A stretch of 64,000 nucleotides of DNA from Arthrobacter sp. TMP15 (GTDB lineage Bacteria; Actinomycetota; Actinomycetes; Actinomycetales; Micrococcaceae): the NCBI RefSeq assembly GCF_039529835.1, contig NZ_CP154262.1, positions 1,178,001 through 1,242,000 of the forward strand. Reading direction: 5' to 3'. Made by a program: the position numbers and the translations under genes. The notes beneath the pieces are model-generated. The model searched no databases. It saw only the letters and a program-made list of their open reading frames with translations, and was not told the origin of the DNA. Positions 5,042 to 43,364 of the stretch are shown one piece after another (position 1 is the stretch's first letter; every line of letters starts with the position of its first letter).

Positions 5042-6223
5042 GTGACTGTTACTGATATCCCCACCAGCGAAACAAAAATCGATCTGCCGCCTTTGAAACT
5101 TGGCAACATCACAGTGGAAACACCTGTGGTGCTTGCCCCCATGGCTGGCATTACGAACACGGCGTTCCGCAGACTCTGCCGTGAACATGGTGGCGGCGTT
5201 TTCGTTTCAGAAATGGTGACCTCCCGTGCGTTGGTGGAGCGCACGCCGGAATCGATGCGTTTGATCAGCCACGACGAGGATGAGGCAATCCGCTCGGTTC
5301 AGCTTTACGGCGTGGACCCGGAAACTGTGGGCCAGGCCGTACGCATGCTGGTGGAGGAAGACCACGCGGATCATATCGACTTGAATTTTGGCTGCCCGGT
5401 GGCCAAGGTGACCCGGCGTGGCGGCGGTGCAGCACTGCCGTGGAAGCTTGACCTGTTCACCTCCATAGTTCAGACAGCTGTCCGTGAAGCCGCCAAGGGT
5501 GGGCTGCCGTTGACTATCAAAATGCGTAAAGGTATTGACCAGGACCACCTCACTTACCTGGAGGCGGGCCGCATTGCCCGTGACGCCGGTGTGGCCGCGG
5601 TTGCACTGCATGGGCGCACGGCCAGCCAGTTTTATTCCGGTAAGGCGGATTGGGATGCCATTGCGCGTCTGCGTGAAGCGCTCCCGGATGTGCCGGTGCT
5701 TGGCAACGGAGATATTTGGAGTGCCGAGGACGCTATTGCCATGGTTCGTCAAACAGGTGTTGATGGCGTGGTTGTTGGCCGTGGCTGTCAGGGACGCCCG
5801 TGGCTTTTTGGTGATTTGATGGCTGCTTTTGAGGGCAGCGATGCCCGCCACAAGCCGGGGATGGCTGAGGTTTCGGCAGCCGTTTACCGCCATGCTGAGC
5901 TGTTAGTGGATACCTTTGACGATGAAAATAAGGCTCTGCGTGATATCCGTAAACATATGGCCTGGTACTTCAAGGGGTATGTGGTGGGTGGCGACCTTCG
6001 GGCCAAGCTCTCTACCGTGCCAACCTTAGAAGTTCTGCGCGGACTGTTGGATCAGTTGGATATGACCGAGGAGTACCCTGGCGTGGATGCCGAGGGCCCC
6101 CGCGGCCGTGCCGGTACACCCAAACGCACGGCACTTCCAGCTGGTTGGCTGGAACACAGGACCCTGAGCGGTTCACAAAAAGTAGAAATTGCAGGAGCTG
6201 AGCTGGACGTCTCCGGCGGCTGA
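5042..6223 (+). CDS. dusB: tRNA-dihydrouridine synthase DusB-type
   Basis: This 393-residue flavoenzyme reduces uridine to dihydrouridine in tRNA D-loops using FMN and NADPH. The conserved N-terminal motif VLAPMAGITN is at about residue 31, the catalytic-cysteine motif NFGCPVAKV near 116, and the FMN-contacting GNGDI and GVVVGRGCQGRPW segments near 220-255. The start is GTG at 5042, and the length matches actinobacterial DusB. The C-terminal 50 residues are variable. It precedes dgt and dnaG, an order common in Actinobacteria. The stop codon TGA is also the first three bases of a 32-bp tandem repeat. Confidence 0.93.
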   Translation: MTVTDIPTSETKIDLPPLKLGNITVETPVVLAPMAGITNTAFRRLCREHGGGVFVSEMVTSRALVERTPESMRLISHDEDEAIRSVQLYGVDPETVGQAVRMLVEEDHADHIDLNFGCPVAKVTRRGGGAALPWKLDLFTSIVQTAVREAAKGGLPLTIKMRKGIDQDHLTYLEAGRIARDAGVAAVALHGRTASQFYSGKADWDAIARLREALPDVPVLGNGDIWSAEDAIAMVRQTGVDGVVVGRGCQGRPWLFGDLMAAFEGSDARHKPGMAEVSAAVYRHAELLVDTFDDENKALRDIRKHMAWYFKGYVVGGDLRAKLSTVPTLEVLRGLLDQLDMTEEYPGVDAEGPRGRAGTPKRTALPAGWLEHRTLSGSQKVEIAGAELDVSGG

Positions 6224-6303
6224 CGCTCGCTCACTCCACGTTGTGTTTACCGTGACGCTCGCTCACTCCACGTTATGTTTACCCTGACGCTCGCTCACTC
6301 CAC
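6221..6303. repeat. 32-bp tandem repeat (about 2.6 copies), dispersed family
   Basis: Copies start at 6221, 6253 and 6285 with an exact 32-bp period. Each begins TGACGCTCGCTCACTCCACG and continues with a TTRTGTTTACC-like tail; the third copy is truncated. The first copy starts with the dusB stop codon. The same unit, in the same orientation and period, recurs at 43287-43364. Confidence 0.9.
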
Positions 6304-23912: not shown

Positions 23913-25430
23913 TTAACCGGCTTTGGGCTGACTTGGTGGCGTACGTGGATCCTCTAGCGCAAGAGGACGTTCCGGGACATGTAGTTTGGACATGAACCGT
24001 GAAAGTGTTGCACTGCGGCGCTTGGGCGTCGCTTTGGAAACCAGGATGGTCACCAGGAAAGCGGCTGGGACGCTCCAGGCGGCCGGCTGCGTCAACACAT
24101 CTCGCCATGGCGAGTCCGGGGCCAGCTGAGAGCCCACAATGATCGCCGTTCCGCATAACACTGCCCCTGTCAGCATCCCTGCCACAGCGCCAACGTCCGT
24201 GAGCCCGCGCCACCATATTCCCAGCAAAAGTAGGGGGCAAATGGTCGAAGCGGTGAAGGCAAAAACCAGCCCCACGCTGCCGGCCAACGCCAACGAGTCG
24301 GTAACCATGGCAACGCCAAAGGGTACGACGGCGGCAACTATGGCCGCTATCCGGAACCCCCGCACACCACCACCTAGTACGTCTTGGCTGATGACTCCCG
24401 CCAAGGAAACCACGAGTCCTGAGGTTGTGGCCAAAAATGCCGCAAAGGCTCCCGCCACGACAAGGGCTGAGAGTAGATCCCCAGCCAGGCCCCCAAATAG
24501 TTTTCCAGGCAGCAGCAGCACCGTGGCATCCGGATAACCGTGGGCGGCCAGCTCAGGTAGAAACGCCCTGCCCAGAACTCCGTAAATGGTGGGGAATAGA
24601 TAAAAAATGGCCAGCAAACCCAGGACTATCAGCGTGGTTCGGCGGGCCGCAGCACCATCGGGATTTGTATAAAAACGTACTAACACATGGGGCATCCCCA
24701 GAGTGCCGAACAGCAGTGCAACCAGAAGCGAGAGGGTGCGGTAAGTGCCGTCGCCAGCGAGCGGGTCGGTGATGGGAAACAGTTCGGTGGTAGGCGGTAG
24801 CGCCGGCGCCGAGCCGGTGGCCCCTGTCACCAGAAGCAGAATAAAGATGGCGGGCACGGCCAAGGCCGTGAGCTTAAGCCAGTATTGGAACGCTTGAACG
24901 AATGTAATTGAGCGCATGCCACCGGTAACAACCGTCAGGCACACAACCACAACAACTGATCCTGCGCCCACCCATGACGGCAGCCCCGTGGTGGTACGGA
25001 TGGTCAAGGCTGCACCGTGTAATTGCGGCACAATGTAAAACCAGCCCACAACAACCACGAGCACGCTTGTGACATAACGGGCAGTGGTTGATTCGAGCCT
25101 GGCTTCGGCAAAGTCAGGGATCGTGTAGGCACCGGAGCGACGTAGGGGAGCGGCTACGAAGAACAGCAGCATCAAGTACCCGCCCGTGTAGCCGATGGGG
25201 AACCAGAGAGCGTCTAGTCCAGAGATGACGATGAGTCCGGCGATGCCAAGGAAGCTCGCTGCGGAAAGATATTCACCGCCGATTGCCGAGGCGTTCCACC
25301 ATGGCTGCACAGTGCGTGAGGCAACATAGAAGTCACTTGTGGTTCGGGAGACTCGCAGCCCATAAAACCCAATGACGGTGGTAGCGACGGAGACAAGAAT
25401 CAGAGCAGTGTAACCAATTGCTGGGTTCAT
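23913..25430 (-). CDS. Sodium/solute symporter (SSS family, acetate-permease-like)
   Basis: A 505-residue membrane protein with 13 predicted helices of the LeuT-type fold. Family motifs include the N-terminal SAIGGEYLSAASFLGIAG, matching the GDYLSAASFLG motif of acetate/monocarboxylate permeases, and TLGMPHVLVRFYTNPDGAAARR near residue 240. It is the last gene of a leftward run starting with a LytS-type kinase. Its start overlaps the end of the small membrane protein gene by four bases. A monocarboxylate substrate such as acetate or pyruvate is likely but not proven. A paralogue lies at 28558-30210. Confidence 0.88.
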   Translation of the reverse strand: MNPAIGYTALILVSVATTVIGFYGLRVSRTTSDFYVASRTVQPWWNASAIGGEYLSAASFLGIAGLIVISGLDALWFPIGYTGGYLMLLFFVAAPLRRSGAYTIPDFAEARLESTTARYVTSVLVVVVGWFYIVPQLHGAALTIRTTTGLPSWVGAGSVVVVVCLTVVTGGMRSITFVQAFQYWLKLTALAVPAIFILLLVTGATGSAPALPPTTELFPITDPLAGDGTYRTLSLLVALLFGTLGMPHVLVRFYTNPDGAAARRTTLIVLGLLAIFYLFPTIYGVLGRAFLPELAAHGYPDATVLLLPGKLFGGLAGDLLSALVVAGAFAAFLATTSGLVVSLAGVISQDVLGGGVRGFRIAAIVAAVVPFGVAMVTDSLALAGSVGLVFAFTASTICPLLLLGIWWRGLTDVGAVAGMLTGAVLCGTAIIVGSQLAPDSPWRDVLTQPAAWSVPAAFLVTILVSKATPKRRSATLSRFMSKLHVPERPLALEDPRTPPSQPKAG

Positions 25431-25819
25431 GCTCCGTCCACCAGGTCACGGTATTGGTCCTCATTTTTGGTTGCTGCCCGCACATAAAGCCAGGCGCAGG
25501 CACCAATGATGGGGTACACGCCAACACCGAGCAGTATCCACGGGGCCGGAATGCCCAAGATGACCCAATCGGCAAAAAATGGGACCCATCGGACAAACAC
25601 CCAGAAAAGCAGTAGGGCGCAAGTGAACCCGGCCGTCACAACCAGGGCGAGCCGCAACTGTGAGCGGATCAGTGAACGCACCATCACTTCGCCCACAGCC
25701 GTTTGTTCGGCTACCTCCTGCGACACGCTTGTGCCATCCAAGAAGCGACGGGCCGCAGTACGGGGTGAGGCCACCCTGACGCGTCCCGGGGCTGGCGGAC
25801 GGCGTGGTCCCATGGTCAT
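25427..25819 (-). CDS. Small two-helix membrane protein, symporter accessory (DUF485-like)
   Basis: 130 residues with a basic N-terminus and two hydrophobic helices (about 58-80 and 90-112), followed by a charged tail ending EDQYRDLVDGA. Size, topology and position immediately upstream of an SSS symporter match the DUF485 accessory proteins of acetate permeases, although the sequence is divergent from the DUF485 protein at 28183. It overlaps the symporter by four bases and follows the LytTR regulator by 16 bp. It probably assists assembly or activity of the symporter; this is inference from context. The start could be six bases downstream. Confidence 0.72.
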   Translation of the reverse strand: MTMGPRRPPAPGRVRVASPRTAARRFLDGTSVSQEVAEQTAVGEVMVRSLIRSQLRLALVVTAGFTCALLLFWVFVRWVPFFADWVILGIPAPWILLGVGVYPIIGACAWLYVRAATKNEDQYRDLVDGA

Positions 25820-25835
25820 TGGCAGTGTCCCTTAC

Positions 25836-26561
25836 TCATGAGTTGGGGCGCACCCTTGTTGCTTGTAAATGCTGACGCAACATGGGGACGTGTCTGCGGC
25901 TGACAGGGAGGACAGCGTTGCCTACCGAAACTGTTGGCTTCGCTGCACCAAGTTTCCATGCTGTCACAAATTGCAGGCACACAAGGTAAGACCTATGAAT
26001 GCGGATGAAGTCCAACTCTGCCCAACGTTGTTCCAAATCAGCCAATGGGATGCGAATCAAGTAGCTGGCCTCGGCTGTGTGCAGCCTGGCGTAGTCGCCT
26101 TGAGCCTGGACGAACTTCACGTCATCGAGCCGGATGAGTCTACTGACGCCGCCTTGATCAACTGTGATCATCTCCACCTCGTCCGCTGCTGCCGGGTGGG
26201 CTACAAGTTCTACCACTCTGTCAACGGTGCGGGTGAGTCGTTCCGGGCGCAGCGGCTTCAACAGGTAATCGACGGCGGCGAGTTCAAAGGCCTCAAGTGC
26301 CCTGTCGTCATCAGCTGTCACAAAGACCACCACTGGCGGATTACTGGAACTGCCAATGACAGCCGCTAGCTCCAGCCCCGACAGCCCAGGCATGTGGATG
26401 TCAAGAAATACTGCGTCAATCGTGTGGACAGCAAGCAGCTTGAGAGCCTCCGCGCCGTTCATGGCCCGGTGGATGGCGCCTATCCGCGGGTCCCGGCCCA
26501 GGAGGAAGGCGAGCTCTTCAACGGCGGGAAGCTCGTCGTCGGCCACAAGGACATTAATCAT
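25836..26561 (-). CDS. Response regulator, LytTR DNA-binding type
   Basis: 241 residues: a receiver domain (1-120) with acidic pocket D8/D9, phosphorylation site Asp54 (VFLDIHMPG) and Lys in LLKPLRPE, followed by a LytTR domain (about 138-235; IRIHRSYLV and LPVSRRHVP are typical). LytTR proteins bind pairs of 9-bp direct repeats. It pairs with the LytS-type kinase gene at 26792, from which it is separated by a 55-bp tandem repeat array. No Shine-Dalgarno is visible; on the minus strand TAGGCT sits seven bases before the ATG, so a separate leaderless transcript is possible. Confidence 0.92.
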   Translation of the reverse strand: MINVLVADDELPAVEELAFLLGRDPRIGAIHRAMNGAEALKLLAVHTIDAVFLDIHMPGLSGLELAAVIGSSSNPPVVVFVTADDDRALEAFELAAVDYLLKPLRPERLTRTVDRVVELVAHPAAADEVEMITVDQGGVSRLIRLDDVKFVQAQGDYARLHTAEASYLIRIPLADLEQRWAELDFIRIHRSYLVCLQFVTAWKLGAAKPTVSVGNAVLPVSRRHVPMLRQHLQATRVRPNS

Positions 26562-26572
26562 GGGGCTAAGCC

Positions 26573-26792
26573 TAACCGCCGAGGGGCCCCAAACGAACGA
26601 AGTGAGTTTGGGGAGGTGGGGAGGCGCTAACCGCCGAGGGGCCCCAAACGAACGAAGTGAGTTTGGGGAGGTGGGGAGGCGCTAACCGCCGAGGGGCCCG
26701 GAACGAACGAAGTGAGTTTGGGGAGGTGGGGAGGCGCTAGGCGTCATGGGGCCCGGAACGAACGAAGTGAGTTTGGGGAGGTGGGGAGGCGC
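26573..26792. repeat. Four tandem 55-bp repeats between kinase and regulator genes
   Basis: Units start at 26573, 26628, 26683 and 26738 with an exact 55-bp period. Each contains CGAACGAAGTGAGTTTGGGG and GAGGTGGGGAGGCGCTA. In units 1 and 2 CCCCAAAC pairs with GTTTGGGG around 11 bases; in units 3 and 4 one arm is degraded. The junction with unit 4 carries GCGTCAT, a copy of the kinase gene's terminal codons. The array ends within the kinase stop codon and stops 11 bases from the regulator's ATG. Confidence 0.92.
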
Positions 26793-28027
26793 TAGGCGTC
26801 ATGTCCGGGTTGATTCTTGGGCACTGTCATGGTGATCAGCATGCCGTGCCCCATGCCGGTGTCAATGGTGAGCCCGTGCTCGTCGCCGTAAACCTGGCGA
26901 AGGCGCGCGTCAACATTGCGCAGGCCCACATGCGTGCCGTCGTGCTGGCCAGCCAAAACTAGCCGCAGCTGCTCGGGGTCCATCCCCACGCCGTCGTCCT
27001 CGATTGTCACTTCCGTGTACGCGCCAAGGTCCCTGGCACAAATCTGCACCAGCCCCTTGCCCACTTTCGCCTCCAGACCATGGCGGACGGCGTTCTCCAC
27101 CAGCGGCTGCAGGCTCAGGAACGGTATCACTGTGCTGAGGACTTCGGGGGCAATCTGCAGGCTGACCTGCAGGCGTTCACCAAAACGGGCGTTTTCAAGT
27201 AGCAGGTACCTATCAATGCAGCGCAGTTCCTCGGCCAGTGTGGTGAAGTCGCCGTGCCTGCGGAAGGAGTATCTGGTGAAGTCGGCGAACTCCACCACCA
27301 AATCCCTTGCCCGTTGCGGATCCGTGTTGATGAAGGAGGCGATGGCGTTGAGTGAGTTGTAAATAAAATGCGGACTGATTTGTGCGCGTAGTGCACGCAC
27401 CTCAGCCTCTGCCAGAAGAGTCCGGGAGGAACTGAGCTCGGCCAATTCCAGCTGAGCCGAAACCCACGCAGCAACCTCATTGGTAGCCCGGACCAGTCCT
27501 GCAGAAGGAGTCTTGGATAAAATGATCACCACGCCAACAGCTCGCGAATCAACTTTTAACGGACAAATGACGGCAGCTTTCAACTCACCGCCCTGCAGTG
27601 GCAACCCCAGCGCCTCCCGCAGCGGTGCATCCAGCGTGGCCACCTGGGTGCGTCCGTTACTCAGGGCCTTGGCCGCCAAATCCATGACGACGGCGGAATC
27701 GGGCTGCTTAGCGGCGGCGCCTGCCCCATCCCAGGCTAGGAGACGCGAATCATCGGTCATGGCGAACGCTGCGCAGTTCAGCAATGCACGCAACTGTTTG
27801 CTGGCCTTCAGGGCCCCTGCCGGCTCCAAACCATTGCGCAACTGCTCTCCAGCTGCTGCCGCCGAATGCAGAGTGGCAAACGTTGCGCGCTCGGCATCGG
27901 TACCCAGCTCACGGTAGGAGCGCGAAAGCCGGAAACCCACGGCGGCAACAATCGCGATGGCGGCAATGACGGCTGCGATTGCTGTGATGAGCAAAAGTGT
28001 GGAATCGCTCAGTGCGGGAAAGGACAT
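26792..28027 (-). CDS. Sensor histidine kinase, LytS/YpdA-like
   Basis: 411 residues. One N-terminal helix (about 12-32) anchors it; a GAF-like sensor region follows (about 45-190). The His_kinase domain has the phospho-acceptor His220 in ISPHFIYNSLN, and the ATPase domain has LVENAVRHG and DDGVGMDPEQL. The long multi-helix LytS sensor found in Gram-positive LytS is absent. It is the first gene of a leftward unit with a LytTR regulator, a small membrane protein and an SSS symporter, so it likely senses extracellular or intracellular carboxylates. The stimulus is unknown. Confidence 0.9.
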   Translation of the reverse strand: MSFPALSDSTLLLITAIAAVIAAIAIVAAVGFRLSRSYRELGTDAERATFATLHSAAAAGEQLRNGLEPAGALKASKQLRALLNCAAFAMTDDSRLLAWDGAGAAAKQPDSAVVMDLAAKALSNGRTQVATLDAPLREALGLPLQGGELKAAVICPLKVDSRAVGVVIILSKTPSAGLVRATNEVAAWVSAQLELAELSSSRTLLAEAEVRALRAQISPHFIYNSLNAIASFINTDPQRARDLVVEFADFTRYSFRRHGDFTTLAEELRCIDRYLLLENARFGERLQVSLQIAPEVLSTVIPFLSLQPLVENAVRHGLEAKVGKGLVQICARDLGAYTEVTIEDDGVGMDPEQLRLVLAGQHDGTHVGLRNVDARLRQVYGDEHGLTIDTGMGHGMLITMTVPKNQPGHDA

Positions 28028-28075
28028 GATCTAAAGACTAGCGGGAGATTCACTGGGCACCATGGTGAAGAAGTT

Positions 28076-28105
28076 GCCGTTCGGCGCAGTGTCAATGCCG
28101 TTCAC
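28076..28105. promoter_or_regulatory. Candidate LytTR operator: two 9-bp direct repeats
   Basis: GCCGTTCGG (28076-28084) and GCCGTTCAC (28097-28105) are separated by 12 bp, a 21-bp repeat phase of two helical turns. Both contain the CGTT core seen in LytTR sites. They lie in the divergent region between the kinase gene and the DUF485-symporter operon, about 80-110 bp before the latter's start codon, suitable for an activator. Confidence 0.6.
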
Positions 28106-28182
28106 CGCGGCACTACCCCAACCCCTCGATATTGTGAGCTACCGCACTCCATAGTGAAAGGGATCACACTACTTGAGGAGGA

Positions 28183-28554
28183 ATGATGGGTAATTCAGCC
28201 CATGCAAGCACCGAAGGTCCGGTGGACTTTGTTGGCGAACAAAGCTCACAGGAATTCCAGAAGCTCCGTAAGACACACCGGAACTTTGTTTTCCCCGTAG
28301 CCATTGGCTTTTTGGTTTGGTACTTTGCCTACGTTCTACTAGCCGCGTACGCGCACGACTTCATGTCCATCAAGGTGTGGGAGAACATCAACGTTGGACT
28401 GGTCCTGGGCAGTCTCCAATTCGTCACCACTTTCGGCATCACCACCTGGTATGTCACCTATGCAAACCGGAAGCTCGATCCTCAGGCGGCAGTGATTCGC
28501 ACCCGTCTTGAGGCTCAGATCGAGGCAGCAGCGACTACCAAGGAAGAGGTTTAG
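28183..28554 (+). CDS. DUF485 family membrane protein
   Basis: 123 residues with two helices and the DUF485 pattern FQKLRKTHRNFVFPVAIGF ... YVTYANRKLDPQA. DUF485 proteins (YjcH in E. coli) are co-transcribed with ActP-type acetate permeases. The ATG at 28183 follows GAGGAGGA closely. The symporter gene starts three bases after its stop, so the two are one operon. Function is inferred from that conserved pairing; the protein may stabilise or modulate the permease. Confidence 0.92.
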   Translation: MMGNSAHASTEGPVDFVGEQSSQEFQKLRKTHRNFVFPVAIGFLVWYFAYVLLAAYAHDFMSIKVWENINVGLVLGSLQFVTTFGITTWYVTYANRKLDPQAAVIRTRLEAQIEAAATTKEEV

Positions 28555-28557
28555 CCC

Positions 28558-30210
28558 GTGAGTTTATCTCTGATTTTTCCCACTATGGCCCCACTGGCAA
28601 AATCGCTCGCCGAGCAAACCAAGGAGAATTCATGGATTAACATCCTGATCTTCGTGGGATTCGTTGCGATCACCATGATTGTGGTGTTCCGGGCCAGCCG
28701 AAATAACAAAACTGCAGCCGATTACTACGCGGCTGGGCGCTCCTTCTCCGGTGGCCAGAATGGCACGGCTATTGCCGGAGACTACCTGTCAGCGGCTTCG
28801 TTCCTGGGTATTACAGGCGCCATTGCCGTGAACGGTTACGACGGTTTCCTCTACTCCATCGGATTCCTGGTGGCCTGGTTGGTGGCGCTCCTGCTCGTTG
28901 CAGAGCTGTTGCGCAACACCGGCAAGTTCACCATGGCTGACGTGCTCTCTTTCCGGCTCAAGCAGCGCCCCGTGCGCATTGCCGCAGCAACCACCACGCT
29001 GGTTGTCTGCTTCTTCTACCTGCTGGCCCAAATGGCAGGTGCTGGTGGATTGGTTTCGCTGCTCTTGGGCTTGGACAACTCCAATAAGGTGGGCCAGAAC
29101 ATCGTCATCGCCGTTGTGGGTGTGCTGATGATTGTCTACGTACTGATCGGTGGCATGAAGGGCACCACCTGGGTGCAGATCATCAAAGCGTTCCTGCTCA
29201 TTATTGGTGCGGCGATCATGACCATCATTGTGCTGGCCATGCACGGCTTCAACCTCTCAACACTCATGGAGGCAGCAGTACAAACCTCCATCGCTGAAGG
29301 CGGTGCCGGTGAGGCACTGCTGAACCCGGGCGCCGCGTATGGCAAGGCCCCGCTTGACTTTGTTTCTCTGGCATTGGCACTTGTCCTTGGAACGGCGGCC
29401 CTGCCACACGTTCTGATGCGCTTCTACACCGTGCCCACAGCTAAGGAAGCCCGCAAATCTGTTGTTTGGGCCATCTGGTTGATTGGTGGTTTCTACATCT
29501 TCACCCTGGTCCTTGGCTACGGCGCGGGTGCCTTGATTGGCAAGGAAGCCATCCTGGCTGCTCCCGGCGGCGTCAATGCCGCTGCTCCGCTGCTTGCCTT
29601 CGTAGTGGGTGGACCGATCCTGCTTGGCTTCATCTCCGCCGTTGCCTTCGCCACCATCTTGGCGGTTGTAGCCGGTCTAACCATCACGGCGGCGGCATCC
29701 TTTGCGCACGATATCTACTCCAACGTCATCGTCAAGGGCGAGCCCAAGCCGGAGATGGAAGTCAAGGTAGCCCGTCGCACTGTAGTGGTGATCGGTGTGG
29801 TCGCCATCGGTGGCGGTATCCTGGCCAACGGTCAGAACATCGCGTTTTTGGTGGCACTTGCTTTCGCCATCGCAGCTTCTGCGAACCTGCCCACAATTAT
29901 CTACTCATTGTTCTGGAAGAAGTTCACTACTCAGGGTGCGCTGTGGAGCATGTACGGCGGCTTGGCTGCGGCCATCATCCTCATCGCGTTCTCACCGGTT
30001 GTTTCCGGTAGCGAGAAGGCCATGATTCCAGGCGCTGACTTCTCCTGGTTCCCGCTGGCGAACCCGGGCATTGTCTCCATCCCCCTGGCATTCTTCCTGG
30101 GCTGGTTGGGCACAGTTTTGGATAAGAACACCGAGGATCCCAGGATTCAGGCTGAGATGGAAGTGCGCTCGCTGACAGGTATCGGTGCCGAGAAGGCAGT
30201 GGACCACTAA
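28558..30210 (+). CDS. actP: Cation/acetate symporter ActP-like
   Basis: A 550-residue SSS-family transporter with about 13 helices. Motifs include TAADYYAAGRSFSGGQNG, AIAGDYLSAASFLGITG and GTAALPHVLMRFYTVPTAKEARKS, all typical of ActP/MctC-type monocarboxylate uptake systems that use the Na+ or H+ gradient. The GTG start at 28558 is close behind the DUF485 stop. It is divergent from, and probably regulated by, the neighbouring two-component system. Likely substrates are acetate, propionate or pyruvate. Confidence 0.93.
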   Translation: MSLSLIFPTMAPLAKSLAEQTKENSWINILIFVGFVAITMIVVFRASRNNKTAADYYAAGRSFSGGQNGTAIAGDYLSAASFLGITGAIAVNGYDGFLYSIGFLVAWLVALLLVAELLRNTGKFTMADVLSFRLKQRPVRIAAATTTLVVCFFYLLAQMAGAGGLVSLLLGLDNSNKVGQNIVIAVVGVLMIVYVLIGGMKGTTWVQIIKAFLLIIGAAIMTIIVLAMHGFNLSTLMEAAVQTSIAEGGAGEALLNPGAAYGKAPLDFVSLALALVLGTAALPHVLMRFYTVPTAKEARKSVVWAIWLIGGFYIFTLVLGYGAGALIGKEAILAAPGGVNAAAPLLAFVVGGPILLGFISAVAFATILAVVAGLTITAAASFAHDIYSNVIVKGEPKPEMEVKVARRTVVVIGVVAIGGGILANGQNIAFLVALAFAIAASANLPTIIYSLFWKKFTTQGALWSMYGGLAAAIILIAFSPVVSGSEKAMIPGADFSWFPLANPGIVSIPLAFFLGWLGTVLDKNTEDPRIQAEMEVRSLTGIGAEKAVDH

Positions 30211-30377: not shown

Positions 30378-30848
30378 TTAGCGTTTCAGCATCCGTTTTA
30401 GTAGAGGTGACATGCGGAAGGGAACCAGCTCGTTCATGGCCAGCGATGTTTCTGTACGCTCCACGCCGTCGCAGGAGAGGATCTTGCCGTTAATGCGGAA
30501 CAAGTCCTCGGCTCCGGTGGAGACCACTTTGACCAACAGATCTGCCCTACCACTGAGTCCATGGGCCTCAACGACTTCAGGGATCTGTGCCAGTGCTGTT
30601 GCCAAGGCAGAGATTTTTCGCTGCTGGACATGCACCGAAATAAAGGCTGTCAGAGGGTAGCCCAGCGGGCCGGGGCTGATCCGGTGGTCAAATGGCAGGA
30701 ACGCATCACGCTTCTCAAGTGCAACCATCCGGGCTTGGACTGTATTGCGAGATATTCCCAATGACTCGGCCATGGCTACCACTGTCTGGCGAGGGTCTTT
30801 GATCAGGGCTAGGAGAATCCGTGCATCTGTTCCATCCAAAGTTGACAT
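30378..30848 (-). CDS. Lrp/AsnC family transcriptional regulator, probable BkdR
   Basis: The ATG at 30848 (MSTLDGTDARIL) gives 156 residues, the usual Lrp size; TAGTCT seven bases upstream suggests a leaderless start, so the longer frame from 30902 is less likely. An N-terminal HTH (about 20-60; MAESLGISRNTVQARMVALEKRDAF pattern) is followed by the RAM effector domain. The gene is divergent from bkdABC, as in mycobacteria and streptomycetes where Lrp-type BkdR responds to branched-chain amino acids. The AT-rich spacer between them likely contains its operator. Confidence 0.9.
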   Translation of the reverse strand: MSTLDGTDARILLALIKDPRQTVVAMAESLGISRNTVQARMVALEKRDAFLPFDHRISPGPLGYPLTAFISVHVQQRKISALATALAQIPEVVEAHGLSGRADLLVKVVSTGAEDLFRINGKILSCDGVERTETSLAMNELVPFRMSPLLKRMLKR

Positions 30849-30967
30849 ACTGCGCAGACTAGCACGGTTCAGAGCAGTGAAGTAGTGCATTTTGCTCAAC
30901 ATTATCCTGGGTCATTGCGCCGGATGCATGGCGTGAGTATCGTCACAGTGATAAGAACCACCCCCAT

Positions 30968-30973
30968 TACAAT
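30968..30973 (+). promoter_or_regulatory. Candidate -10 element of the bkd operon
   Basis: TACAAT lies 18 bases before the bkdA ATG; GGGAGG is between them at about 30978-30983. The upstream spacer to the Lrp gene contains the AT-rich stretch TTTTGCTCAACATTATCC, a possible Lrp-type site. No strong -35 is seen. Confidence 0.5.
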
Positions 30974-30991
30974 GCAAGGGAGGCGAGCAAT

Positions 30992-32149
30992 ATGACCCAT
31001 TCGCGCCACGAGCCCAAAGGCCCAGCCGCAATGAAAATGCACCAACTCATCACAGCCGACGGAGACCGTGTTGCCGATGAGCTGCTTGACGGATTCGTCA
31101 GCGACTTAGATGATCAAAGCCTTCGGAATCTCTACGAAGACATGGTTGTCATTCGTCGAATCGATTTTGAATCCACCGCGTTGCAGCGCCAGGGCCAGCT
31201 CGCCCTGTGGCCACCCTTGGTTGGCCAGGAAGCCTCCCAGGTGGGATCGGCGCGGGCGCTTGAAAAAGAAGACTTCATTTTCCCCACATACCGCGAGAAC
31301 GGCGTTGTTTATTGCCGTGGGGCTGAGATGTCAAAGGCTGTTGGCGTTTGGCGAGGCACAAGCAACACTGGGTGGGATCCGCATGAGTACAACATGGCCA
31401 CACCTCAGATCATCATCGGCGCACAGACTTTGCACGCCACAGGTTACGCTATGGGGCTAGCCCTTGAAGGCAAGGAATCGTTGGCCATCGCTTATTTGGG
31501 CGACGGCGCCACAAGCCAAGGTGATGTGCACGAGGCCATGGTTTTTGCGGCCAGTTTTCAAGCACCCGTAATTTTCTTCTGCCAGAACAACCACTGGGCA
31601 ATCTCCGAACCGGTTGGACTGCAGTCACATGTCCCGCTGGCCGGGCGCGCTCCAGGGTATGGCATCCCCAGCCTTCAGGTAGACGGCAACGACGTGCTGG
31701 CAGTGTTGGCAGCTACTCGATGGGCCGCTCACCGTGCCCGCACCGGAGGCGGTCCCAGCTTCATCGAGGCCGTCACCTACCGGATGGGCCCGCACACCAC
31801 CGCCGATGATCCCACCCGTTACCGGGGCGTCACGGAGCTGGAGGAATGGGGTGCCAAGGACCCGCTGGCGCGTATGCGCACGTTCCTGATCAACGCCGGC
31901 AAGCTCGACGACGAAGCCGAAGCTGCGATCAGCGCAAAAGCTGACGAACAGGCTGCCGCACTCCGGCTTGCCTGCATTAATCTGCCGGATCCCGAGGCCA
32001 TGAGCCTGTTTGAGAATGTTTATGTGCATGAGCACTCTGAACTCGAGCTCCAACGCGAGCAGTACAGGGCGTATTTAGCATCCTTCGAGCCAGCGACAGC
32101 CTCCGCTACACAGGGCGTAAATGCCAACGCACAAAGGAGTGTCTCATGA
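30992..32149 (+). CDS. bkdA: Branched-chain 2-oxoacid dehydrogenase E1 alpha subunit
   Basis: 385-residue thiamine-diphosphate-dependent E1 alpha. The TPP motif runs from GDG at 170-172 to NN at 199-200, exactly 30 residues. With E1 beta it decarboxylates 2-oxoisocaproate, 2-oxoisovalerate and 2-oxo-3-methylvalerate. PDH-type E1 alpha is similar in sequence; the branched-chain assignment rests on the linked Lrp regulator and the downstream leucine-degradation genes. GGGAGG is eight bases before the ATG. Its end overlaps bkdB by four bases. Confidence 0.9.
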   Translation: MTHSRHEPKGPAAMKMHQLITADGDRVADELLDGFVSDLDDQSLRNLYEDMVVIRRIDFESTALQRQGQLALWPPLVGQEASQVGSARALEKEDFIFPTYRENGVVYCRGAEMSKAVGVWRGTSNTGWDPHEYNMATPQIIIGAQTLHATGYAMGLALEGKESLAIAYLGDGATSQGDVHEAMVFAASFQAPVIFFCQNNHWAISEPVGLQSHVPLAGRAPGYGIPSLQVDGNDVLAVLAATRWAAHRARTGGGPSFIEAVTYRMGPHTTADDPTRYRGVTELEEWGAKDPLARMRTFLINAGKLDDEAEAAISAKADEQAAALRLACINLPDPEAMSLFENVYVHEHSELELQREQYRAYLASFEPATASATQGVNANAQRSVS

Positions 32150-33156
32150 GTAATTTGACCTTGACACAGGCTATCAACGCCGGGCTGCGGCGTGCGCTTG
32201 AAGATGACCCCAAAGTAGTATTGCTGGGTGAAGACATTGGAACTTTGGGTGGTGTTTTCCGTGTAACTGACGGGTTGATGAAGGACTTTGGCTCGCACAG
32301 GGTCATCGACACACCCTTGGCTGAATCAGCCATCATTGGAACCGCAGTGGGCCTGGCCTACCGTGGGTTCCGACCGGTGTGTGAGATTCAGTTTGATGGT
32401 TTCATCTACCCGGGCTTTGATCAGATTGTCTCCCAGGTCGCCAAACTGCATGCCAGAACCCAGGGCATGGTCCGAATGCCTATGACGATTCGGGTTCCAT
32501 TCGGTGGTGGAATCGGCTCTCCTGAGCACCACTCCGAATCACCCGAAGCTTATTTTGTGCATACCTCCGGTCTGCGCGTGATCAGCCCTTCAAATCCTCA
32601 AGATGCTTACACCATGCTCCGCCAGGCAATCGCAAGCGATGACCCTGTCCTGTACTTTGAGCCCAAGCGTCGGTATCACGTCAAGGGCGAGGTTGACTTA
32701 GAGGGAGACCTTACGGCGGCGCCGGCTATGGGTTCGGCACGCATAGTGGAGGCTGGCACGGATGTCACACTCGTTAGCTATGGCCCGTTGGTAAAGACGG
32801 CTGTTGACGCTGCCCGTGCGGCGGCTGGCGAAGGCATCTCCATCGAAGTCATCGACCTGCGTTCACTCTCACCGGTGGACTATGCAACAGTTCAGGAATC
32901 GGTGCAGCGAACTGGCCGTCTTGTGATCACCCACGAGGCCGCGCGAACCCTAGGGATCGGTGCAGAACTGGCCGCCAGCATCACCGAACGCTGCTTTAAT
33001 TACCTTGAGAGCGCACCCGTGCGTGTCACTGGTTTCGACATCCCCTACCCGCCTTCAAAGCTCGAGAAGCACCACCTGCCGGATCTTGACAGGATTCTGG
33101 ACGGCGTCGACCGCGCACTGGGCCGGCCCAACTCTCACACTGGATTGGAATACTGA
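32146..33156 (+). CDS. bkdB: Branched-chain 2-oxoacid dehydrogenase E1 beta subunit
   Basis: 336 residues, the normal size for E1 beta. Recognisable segments are LLGEDIGTLGGVFRVTDGL, DTPLAESAIIGTAVGLA and FGGGIGSPEHHSESPEAYF, which build the TPP/metal pocket at the alpha-beta interface. The ATG overlaps the bkdA stop (ATGA) and is preceded by AAAGGAG. It works as an alpha2beta2 complex with BkdA and channels acyl groups to the lipoyl arm of BkdC. Confidence 0.92.
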   Translation: MSNLTLTQAINAGLRRALEDDPKVVLLGEDIGTLGGVFRVTDGLMKDFGSHRVIDTPLAESAIIGTAVGLAYRGFRPVCEIQFDGFIYPGFDQIVSQVAKLHARTQGMVRMPMTIRVPFGGGIGSPEHHSESPEAYFVHTSGLRVISPSNPQDAYTMLRQAIASDDPVLYFEPKRRYHVKGEVDLEGDLTAAPAMGSARIVEAGTDVTLVSYGPLVKTAVDAARAAAGEGISIEVIDLRSLSPVDYATVQESVQRTGRLVITHEAARTLGIGAELAASITERCFNYLESAPVRVTGFDIPYPPSKLEKHHLPDLDRILDGVDRALGRPNSHTGLEY

Positions 33157-33158
33157 GA

Positions 33159-34541
33159 ATGATCGCTGAATTCAAGCTCCCCGACTTGGGTGAGGGGCTC
33201 ACGGAGTCCGAGATTGTCACGTGGCATGTCGCCGTGGGCGATTCTGTGACGCTTAATCAGGTCATAGCAGATGTCGAGACAGCCAAAGCAGTAGTAGAGC
33301 TACCGTCACCTTATGCCGGCGTGGTCACAGCCATTGCGCACGAGCCAGGCACGGTGGTTGAAGTGGGCGAAGTCATTATCGCCTTTGACATCCCGAATGC
33401 CGAGGGCAGCGACACGGCCTCTGCTGACACTGCTGCTGAGGAGAGCGCGCCAAAACGTGTGCCAACCCTCGTCGGATATGGGGCGGACCCGGAAACATCT
33501 TCAACTCCTGTGCGCCGGGCACGCAACAGGGCCGCAGAAAGTGCGCCAGCTGCTGTTGCACCTCCAGCCCCGGTAGCACCCCCTGCCGCGCCCGCTCCGC
33601 CGGCACCTGTTGTTGGCGAACCTGCTGAGACGTTGCAAATGCAGGCGGATCGGCCGCGGTCAACTCCGCCAGTACGCAAATTGGCGCGGGATCTGGGTGT
33701 TGATTTGGAAGCAGTAACAGGTTCGGGCGAGCGAGGACTTATCACCCGCGATGACGTGGTGACTTTCGCCGGAAGCCAGGAAGCTGGCGCCTCAACCCCG
33801 GAAATAAGTCAGAGTGTGCCCAGGAAATCTGGGAATCTGGAACGGGAGGAACGCGTACCCATCAAGGGTGTGCGTAAGTTCATGGCATCGGCCATGGTGG
33901 AAAGTGCTTTCACGGCACCGCATGTGAGCGAGTTCTTGACCATTGATGTCACTGCCGGAATGGACTTCCTTGCCAAGCTGCGGGCCAGGAAAGACTTTGC
34001 CGGGGTCAAGGTGACACCGCTGACACTCGCTGCCAAAGCCGTCAGTTTGGCCGTGGCACGGCATCCCGCCCTGAACTCTCACTGGGATGAAGAAAATCAG
34101 GAAATTGTGAACTTCAATTACCTGAACCTCGGCATTGCCGCGGCCACTCCGCGAGGTCTGGTGGTGCCTAATATCAAGGACGCCCAAGAGCTGGGGCTGC
34201 GCGGACTGGCAACAGCCCTGGGCAATCTGGCGGATACGGCGCGGGCAGGCAAAACACCTCCTGCTGACTTAGCTGGCGGCACCTTTTCCATCACAAACAT
34301 TGGTGTGTTTGGTATTGACGCCGGCACTCCGATCCTGAACCCCGGCGAGGCAGGCATCCTGGCGCTGGGTGCGGTGCGCACCATGCCCTGGGAATACCAG
34401 GGTGAGGTGGCACTGCGCCAGGTAATGACATTGAGTTTGTCATTCGATCACAGGCTTGTGGACGGCGCACAAGGTTCACGTTTCCTTTCGGATGTGGGCT
34501 CCGTGCTGGCTGACCCGGCCATGGCCTTGGTGATTGCCTAA
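33159..34541 (+). CDS. bkdC: Branched-chain 2-oxoacid dehydrogenase E2 (dihydrolipoamide acyltransferase)
   Basis: 460 residues in the standard order: lipoyl domain with lipoylated Lys43 (ETAKA), an Ala/Pro-rich linker (about 90-160), a peripheral-subunit-binding domain (VRKLARDLGVDLEAVTGSG, about 168-200) and the catalytic acyltransferase domain ending with HRLVDGAQ, whose His and Asp are the active site. The start is two bases after the bkdB stop. No E3 gene (lipoamide dehydrogenase) is in the cluster, so it must be encoded elsewhere. A strong hairpin follows. Confidence 0.93.
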   Translation: MIAEFKLPDLGEGLTESEIVTWHVAVGDSVTLNQVIADVETAKAVVELPSPYAGVVTAIAHEPGTVVEVGEVIIAFDIPNAEGSDTASADTAAEESAPKRVPTLVGYGADPETSSTPVRRARNRAAESAPAAVAPPAPVAPPAAPAPPAPVVGEPAETLQMQADRPRSTPPVRKLARDLGVDLEAVTGSGERGLITRDDVVTFAGSQEAGASTPEISQSVPRKSGNLEREERVPIKGVRKFMASAMVESAFTAPHVSEFLTIDVTAGMDFLAKLRARKDFAGVKVTPLTLAAKAVSLAVARHPALNSHWDEENQEIVNFNYLNLGIAAATPRGLVVPNIKDAQELGLRGLATALGNLADTARAGKTPPADLAGGTFSITNIGVFGIDAGTPILNPGEAGILALGAVRTMPWEYQGEVALRQVMTLSLSFDHRLVDGAQGSRFLSDVGSVLADPAMALVIA

Positions 34542-43282: not shown

Positions 43283-43286
43283 CCCC

Positions 43287-43364
43287 TGACGCTCGCTCAC
43301 TCCACGTTGTGTTTTCCTTGACGCTCGCTCACTCCACGTCATGTTTTCCCTGACGCTCGCTCAC
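43287..43364. repeat. Second locus of the 32-bp tandem repeat (about 2.4 copies)
   Basis: Copies begin at 43287, 43319 and 43351 with a 32-bp period and share TGACGCTCGCTCACTCCACG and the TGTTTTCC tail with the 6221-6303 array, in the same orientation. It begins four bases after the citE stop. Confidence 0.9.

Follow-up and report, generated by a model that had tools for sequence, protein, structure and literature searches.

What does a two-component system placed between two divergent symporter modules sense, and which of the two modules does it control? The question is posed by positions 23913 to 30210 of a 64,000-nucleotide stretch of contig NZ_CP154262.1 from Arthrobacter sp. TMP15 (the whole stretch analysed is called the window here), where a leftward unit encoding a histidine kinase, a LytTR response regulator, a small membrane protein (SM1) and a sodium:solute symporter family protein (SSS1) faces a rightward unit encoding a DUF485 protein and a second symporter of the SSS family, MctC. 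A preliminary description of the locus had listed these six genes, and open reading frame positions together with family searches bear out their coordinates and divergent arrangement. From comparisons of sequence, we consider it likely that the kinase and regulator form a sensor pair for a monocarboxylate, most probably pyruvate, which would activate mctC, with SSS1 supplying the signal. We found no description of such a control system in the open-licence literature searched, in agreement with the earlier remark that these units are undescribed in Micrococcaceae; in the available sections of a review of Streptomyces coelicolor two-component systems, LytTR is mentioned twice, once in a sentence on classification and once in tabular form (PMC9739842).

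The carrier in the rightward unit can be named from a curated family, as MctC (28558..30210, forward strand) scores 879.6 bits against the monocarboxylic acid transporter model NF058657 and thereby passes its equivalog cut-off of 670; MctC of Corynebacterium glutamicum, whose gene is controlled by RamA and RamB, belongs to the same transporter family. The gene before it (28183..28554, forward strand; Pfam DUF485, 114.8 bits) encodes a small membrane protein and is the first of the predicted target unit. SSS1 (23913..25430, reverse strand) matches Pfam SSF at 161 bits and, as its best NCBIfam family, TIGR03648 at 226.8 bits, under that model's cut-off; SSS1 and MctC are paralogues with 33% identity. 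The SSS1 gene overlaps by four bases that of SM1 (25427..25819, reverse strand), which we regard from its conserved position as the DUF485-like partner of SSS1. The preliminary description gave each symporter its own small two-helix partner; the likeness of SM1 to DUF485 reaches 24.6 bits, below the Pfam cut-off of 28.

Gene order is conserved well beyond this genome. A kinase-based scan gave at least 527 confirmed loci, of which the 80 best are named, and the order kinase-regulator-SM1-SSS1 is intact in 77 of these 80, two of the others ending at a contig edge and one being rearranged; the preliminary description thereby survives its own condition that the gene order not be unique to this genome. 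DUF485-MctC adjoins the kinase-SSS1 core in 73 of the 80 loci, divergently in 62 and collinearly in 11 (Planotetraspora, Nonomuraea, Microbispora and relatives), and, judged by their record titles, the named loci come mostly from Arthrobacter and its relatives, Cryobacterium, Agromyces, Microbacterium, Nonomuraea, Planotetraspora, Microbispora and others. The six-gene group is conserved, more than chance would give.

The kinase and SSS1 are also associated at the level of whole genomes. In a sample of 149 genomes from the order, the kinase is matched at E 0.001 in 57, strongly in 35 (E <1e-96) and as a divergent branch in six (E ~1e-65), and every one of the 27 genomes with SSS1 at E 1e-80 lies within the strong-kinase set. 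Five of the remaining eight strong-kinase genomes carry SSS1 beside the kinase as split matches; the other three (G010, G015 and G051) have the kinase on contigs of 4.5-9.2 kb on which SSS1 was not seen, nor, in G051, the regulator. Across a phylum sample of 396 genomes, with thresholds of 270 bits for the kinase and 219 bits for SSS1 that were set after seeing the lists, SSS1 is present in 28 of 28 genomes with the kinase, and only two more genomes carry SSS1, each with a weaker kinase match directly beside it. The association survives changes of gene order: five loci of one large-genome genus read regulator-small protein-SSS1-kinase (the small protein went undetected in one), and the two halves of the system lie about 4 kb apart in G348 and about 18 kb apart in G358. 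The preliminary claim that one sensor system is tied to carboxylate symporters and has a role in control of uptake is supported.

Comparison of the divergent control regions yielded a predicted LytTR operator, the direct repeat RCCGYTSRSCG-N10-RCCGYTSRSCG, which in the window reads GCCGTTCGGCG-N10-GCCGTTCACCG (28076..28107, forward strand) with a period of 21 bp, 75 bp from the DUF485 start codon and 48 bp from that of the kinase. We built the operator matrix from 63 divergent regions (the 62 loci and the window), and within this training set 63 of 63 regions scored above the 99th percentile of their shuffles (median 27.4 vs 4.3), with five also exceeding that mark on the opposite strand; at spacings from 15 to 27, the median was at most 3.1 everywhere except at the 21-bp period. 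Scores of 20 or more are found in 58 of the 62 divergent and all 11 collinear DUF485-MctC loci, and the four lower ones range from 13.8 to 19.6. This period fits the general binding pattern of LytTR regulators, for which two repeats of 9-11 bases separated by 11-13 are reported (PMC4847170). A sigma-70-like promoter was looked for near the site and none was found.

As these regions trained the matrix, further tests were made. The held-out set comprised 18 loci with DUF485 downstream of SSS1 (the 11 collinear named loci and seven of another family), and a site scoring at least 20 was located 160-257 bp before DUF485 in all 18, a score reached in 0 of 18 opposite strands and 0 of 900 single-base shuffles; 652,304 scanned positions in these loci contained 21 such sites. 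Occurrence of the site also tracks that of the kinase: in the 30 best of 75 genomes with MctC, it precedes MctC in 13 of 15 kinase-bearing and 0 of 15 kinase-free genomes, although the kinase-bearing ones may include close kin of training loci. In the present genome, the window site is the sole match with no mismatch, a further site departs from the pattern at one base and 16 depart at two, giving 18 pattern sites in all vs 25 for a reversed control pattern. Genes were assigned to other strict-pattern sites only in the loci retrieved for follow-up, where one site (L186) lies 1.2 kb from an arabinose isomerase gene, the frame at another (L187) matches no family, and L192 and L193 were left without a gene name.

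The divergent layout alone leaves two operons as candidate targets, and the collinear loci separate them. All 18 loci that have mctC on the downstream side of SSS1 carry the operator in the interval from SSS1 to DUF485, and in none of them is the kinase operon preceded by a site that reaches 20; the predicted target is therefore DUF485-mctC. Alternatively, the regulator could act in both directions, on mctC and on the operon that encodes itself and SSS1. The layout in the window speaks for this, the site being 48 bp from one start codon and 75 bp from the other; a site at a cstA that immediately precedes the kinase and is read in its direction in G038 and G097 also speaks for such dual control, as does the divergent kinase branch, which adjoins other SSS genes and in which a site precedes SSS-kinase-regulator in three of four loci (L174 at 12131, score 29.7; L176 at 6024, 22.8; L177 at 12129, 22.1; none in L175). 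We nevertheless think dual control unlikely as the general rule, given the 18 loci just described and two loci lacking mctC (L103 and L109) in which the site, some 1 kb upstream of the kinase, falls within a reading frame. Its own operon may also be driven by the regulator in the divergent branch and, together with cstA, in G038 and G097. The earlier proposal that one sensor controls two neighbouring uptake systems is not what the operator indicates in those 18 loci, where it marks DUF485-mctC, and SSS1 looks more like a part of the sensing unit.

Further genes behind operator-like sites extend the predicted regulon. The only CstA match of this genome (C1:435527-437215) is preceded by a two-mismatch copy of the operator that starts 127 bp before the presumed cstA ATG and scores 19.5 with the matrix, and cstA would probably be activated as well. 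Among genomes of the family, a site scoring at least 15 at 320-390 bp before the CstA domain is found in 18 of 54 kinase-bearing and 0 of 27 kinase-free genomes, and eight other upstream intervals are empty save for three kinase-free hits at 530-600 bp; the Fisher value of 0.0002 is indicative only, as the interval was picked after seeing the data and the genomes are related. This comparison covers 81 of 108 CstA genomes, the other 27, mostly with split or partial matches, having been left out. Sites also precede L-lactate/oxalate-formate carriers of the MFS family (two over the NCBIfam cut-off and one just under it) and metabolite/H+ symporters that fall under theirs. Together these sites suggest a regulon in which MctC is the main predicted target and cstA is more weakly marked.

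If the regulator acts on carriers of this kind, how would the kinase learn of their substrate? The kinase (26792..28027, reverse strand) consists of one N-terminal helix, a GAF-like domain and a core matching PF06580 (85.6 bits) and HATPase (40.7 bits) as in LytS and BtsS, and the top Protein Data Bank match of this core is the GanS kinase domain. The description of it as LytS-type accordingly holds for the core and fails for the membrane part, since Pfam finds no 5TM-5TMR_LYT receptor domain and a single N-terminal helix stands in its place. Aligned with Escherichia coli BtsS, the kinase is 30% identical over 398 columns beginning at BtsS residue 171. BtsS is reported to bind pyruvate through Arg72, Arg99, Cys110 and Ser113 of its membrane part (PMC10653868); this pocket region (residues 72-113) precedes the aligned part, and the pyruvate-binding membrane part is thus missing from the window kinase. 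The regulator encoded beside it (25836..26561, reverse strand) passes the Pfam cut-offs for both Response_reg (73.2 vs 30.2 bits) and LytTR (61.9 vs 22.6 bits), resembles BtsR (34% identity, 100 bits) and YpdB (29%, 107 bits), and stays below the BtsR equivalog cut-off of NF008677 (142.6 vs 246 bits).

The preliminary description had placed sensing in a GAF-like region of the kinase, and this region can be recognised: the AlphaFold model (mean pLDDT 82.4) has a helix at residues 7-39 and, ahead of the kinase core, an alpha/beta domain at about 43-170 that can be aligned with E. coli BtsS, while the Pfam GAF_2 score of 21.6 bits stays under the cut-off of 28.6. One might accordingly suppose that the GAF domain senses a cytoplasmic metabolite such as pyruvate and that SSS1 is an ordinary co-transcribed transporter that differs from MctC in affinity or coupling ion, a supposition favoured by the GAF-like fold, by conserved columns in this region across 28 kinases, and by the residues of SSS1 considered below. 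We regard it as improbable, as strong kinase and SSS1 occur together in all 28 phylum genomes of that class, even where mctC is not nearby or the order is altered, and as ten genomes keep the locus and a site with a GAF-less kinase. In 10 of 80 kinase-bearing genomes of the family the main kinase has no GAF domain, its match starting only at about residue 164-205, and these loci keep the regulator, the small protein, SSS1 (cut by a contig end in one), DUF485, MctC and a site before DUF485 (scores 17.6-31.4), which weakens the case for GAF sensing. Five of these kinases keep one hydrophobic helix; the other five lack both the GAF domain and the N-terminal helix, with a longest frame from a start codon of 244-276 amino acids, whose first 100 residues contain no strongly hydrophobic segment. 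A kinase core without an input domain needs a partner, and the conserved membrane candidate for this place is SSS1 together with SM1.

The residues of SSS1 bear on whether that partner still transports. Once sequences interrupted by a stop or matched over a short length had been removed, 58 SSS1 and 74 MctC sequences were compared; they share 79 conserved columns, and another 66 are specific to one type. One conserved motif reads Ser/Ala-Thr-x-Ser in SSS1 and Ala-Val-Val-Ala in MctC. We aligned the Ser/Thr motif by eye with serines that we take to belong to the sodium site of SiaT. The two symporters could therefore differ in coupling ion, as the GAF-sensing alternative would have it, and the absence of these residues from MctC agrees with the description of MctC as coupling the transport of pyruvate, propionate and acetate to protons (PMC7918813). 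SSS1 looks like a working and probably sodium-coupled symporter, and it may be both carrier and sensor. We do not claim it as a dead transporter, its sodium-site residues being kept, and a sequence search at E 0.001 found no relatives of it with a solved structure.

The mechanism we favour joins these elements. The BtsS-like cytoplasmic half of the kinase would phosphorylate the LytTR regulator, which would bind the 21-bp-phased direct repeat at 28076-28107 and activate, rather than repress, DUF485-mctC; SSS1 and its small partner, co-encoded with the pair, would pass on the signal, presumably pyruvate, and so replace the membrane receptor that the kinase lacks, through a putative contact between SSS1 and the kinase. 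In the window, SSS1 and the kinase are separate genes and do not form a fused kinase of the SLC5/STAC kind. Long open frames in other loci were suggestive of an SSS1-kinase gene fusion, but the two genes lie in different frames in five of five loci examined, in which the kinase follows SSS1. More tentatively, and with a confidence that falls a little short of even, we propose an actinobacterial sensor family whose receptor would be an unfused SLC5 symporter (SSS1 with SM1), serving a receptor-less BtsS-like kinase that controls MctC, CstA and MFS monocarboxylate carriers; in some genera this kinase would consist of the core alone, having neither a sensory nor a membrane domain.

Several observations weigh against this account, in addition to the divergent-branch sites noted above. 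Kinship among the genomes inflates every count reported here. At looser cut-offs the kinase is found in 84 and SSS1 in 74 of the 396 phylum genomes and the two coincide in only 43, an overlap that is low because distant SSS proteins get counted. The kinase-bearing genomes G038 and G097 have mctC with no site, and the five regulator-first loci have no mctC nearby; the sole site scoring at least 20 among those five is operator-like and lies at position 5214 of L340 (score 24.0). No cstA site at threshold exists in 36 of the 54 kinase-bearing genomes, and 3 of the 27 kinase-free genomes score above 18 at 530-595 bp upstream of cstA, outside the kinase-bearing interval; our guess by eye is that these three hits are coding sequence. 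At five of the ten loci with a GAF-less kinase the site scores no more than 17.6-19.2, and in four of the ten genomes a second kinase, full-length and divergent, is encoded as well. SSS1, finally, may be simply a second transporter, as its sodium-site residues are kept.

The locus resembles several known systems in part. Transporter-like sensing has a precedent in UhpB/UhpC/UhpA/UhpT, where a transporter-like sensor co-encoded with a kinase controls a paralogous transporter, the proteins there being of the MFS rather than the SSS family. In E. coli, BtsSR and PyrSR (YpdAB) are reported to respond to pyruvate and to drive BtsT, of the CstA family, and YhjX, of the MFS (PMC7730263); the present system resembles them in the cytoplasmic half of the kinase, in the LytTR regulator and in its CstA-family and MFS targets, and differs in lacking a multi-helix LytS receptor, in having DUF485-MctC as the main predicted target and in co-encoding an SSS symporter with a small partner. 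The likeness reaches the DNA, as the E. coli yjiY (btsT) oligonucleotide, which contains ACCGCTTA-N13-ACCACTCA, is given with the same period and a half-site beginning ACC(G/A)CT(C/T)A (PMC4847170), without the 3' SCG of the actinobacterial half-site. This is resemblance only: identity of the operator with that of BtsR was considered and rejected, the btsT site scoring -2.9 with the actinobacterial matrix, within background, which also counts against our account.

A signal of acetate or propionate, with the locus serving as an acetate-use switch like CrbSR, would be compatible with the three substrates of proton-coupled MctC (PMC7918813), and the same source reports that CrbSR controls genes such as actP. 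We consider such a signal doubtful, since CstA and lactate/oxalate-formate MFS targets point to pyruvate or lactate and the kinase core is BtsS-like. In CrbS/CrbR and CbrA/CbrB, the SLC5 domain is part of the kinase, whereas here it is separate and the kinase and regulator are of different families. A further parallel is RpuS/RpuR of Sinorhizobium fredii, in which an SLC5/STAC kinase is described as controlling the pyruvate symporter mctP (PMC9100948). Both systems tie an SSS/SLC5 protein to a two-component pair that, in the present case by prediction, uses a direct repeat to control an operon of two genes for a pyruvate symporter; in RpuS/RpuR, STAC joins SLC5 and the kinase in one protein and a LuxR-type regulator is used, whereas here the symporter is separate and the pair is LytS/LytTR-like. 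The locus thus joins two themes, BtsS/LytTR-like phosphotransfer and a separate SLC5 protein, and consists of known parts in a conserved arrangement, whose predicted operator and target set are well supported and for which SSS1 is the putative receptor and pyruvate the presumed ligand. It offers a concrete, testable regulon, with operator, regulator and targets, for monocarboxylate uptake in many actinobacteria, and, if the symporter is the receptor, its unfused parts and natural core-only kinases would ease dissection of transporter-to-kinase signalling as compared with the fused CrbS, CbrA and RpuS.

The surroundings of the locus contain further features. Beyond mctC lies a convergent Lrp/AsnC-type gene followed by likely 2-oxoacid dehydrogenase genes, named by eye; these occupy window positions 30378-34541, the Lrp/AsnC-type gene being divergent from the dehydrogenase genes, and a similar pair is found near mctC in most Arthrobacter-type loci. 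On the SSS1 side, the flank is a convergent DivIVA-repeat gene. Two of the loci carry unexpected record titles, L039 (Sporosarcina beigongshangi) and L078 (Vibrio cholerae strain 35D); both hold an Arthrobacter-type locus with its usual neighbours, which points to mistaken titles or contaminated assemblies as the probable explanation. In the spacer that separates kinase from regulator, Tandem Repeats Finder reports about four 55-bp units (26572..26794), whose 14-base core is restricted, within the window, to that interval and to which four other places in the genome are 75-78% identical over stretches. We do not count this array among the conserved core of the system, the spacers of congeners differing in length and content: they measure 50-145 bp, and two show, by eye, two copies of a similar unit. 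The kinase-regulator gap of Arthrobacter psychrochitiniphilus GP3 (L040, 10228-11053) is about 0.83 kb, as against the usual 50-230 bp, and holds no tandem array. Two similar 32-bp tandem repeats (CTGACGCTCGCTCACTCCACGT...) lie far apart in the window, at 6220-6303 and 43284-43364.

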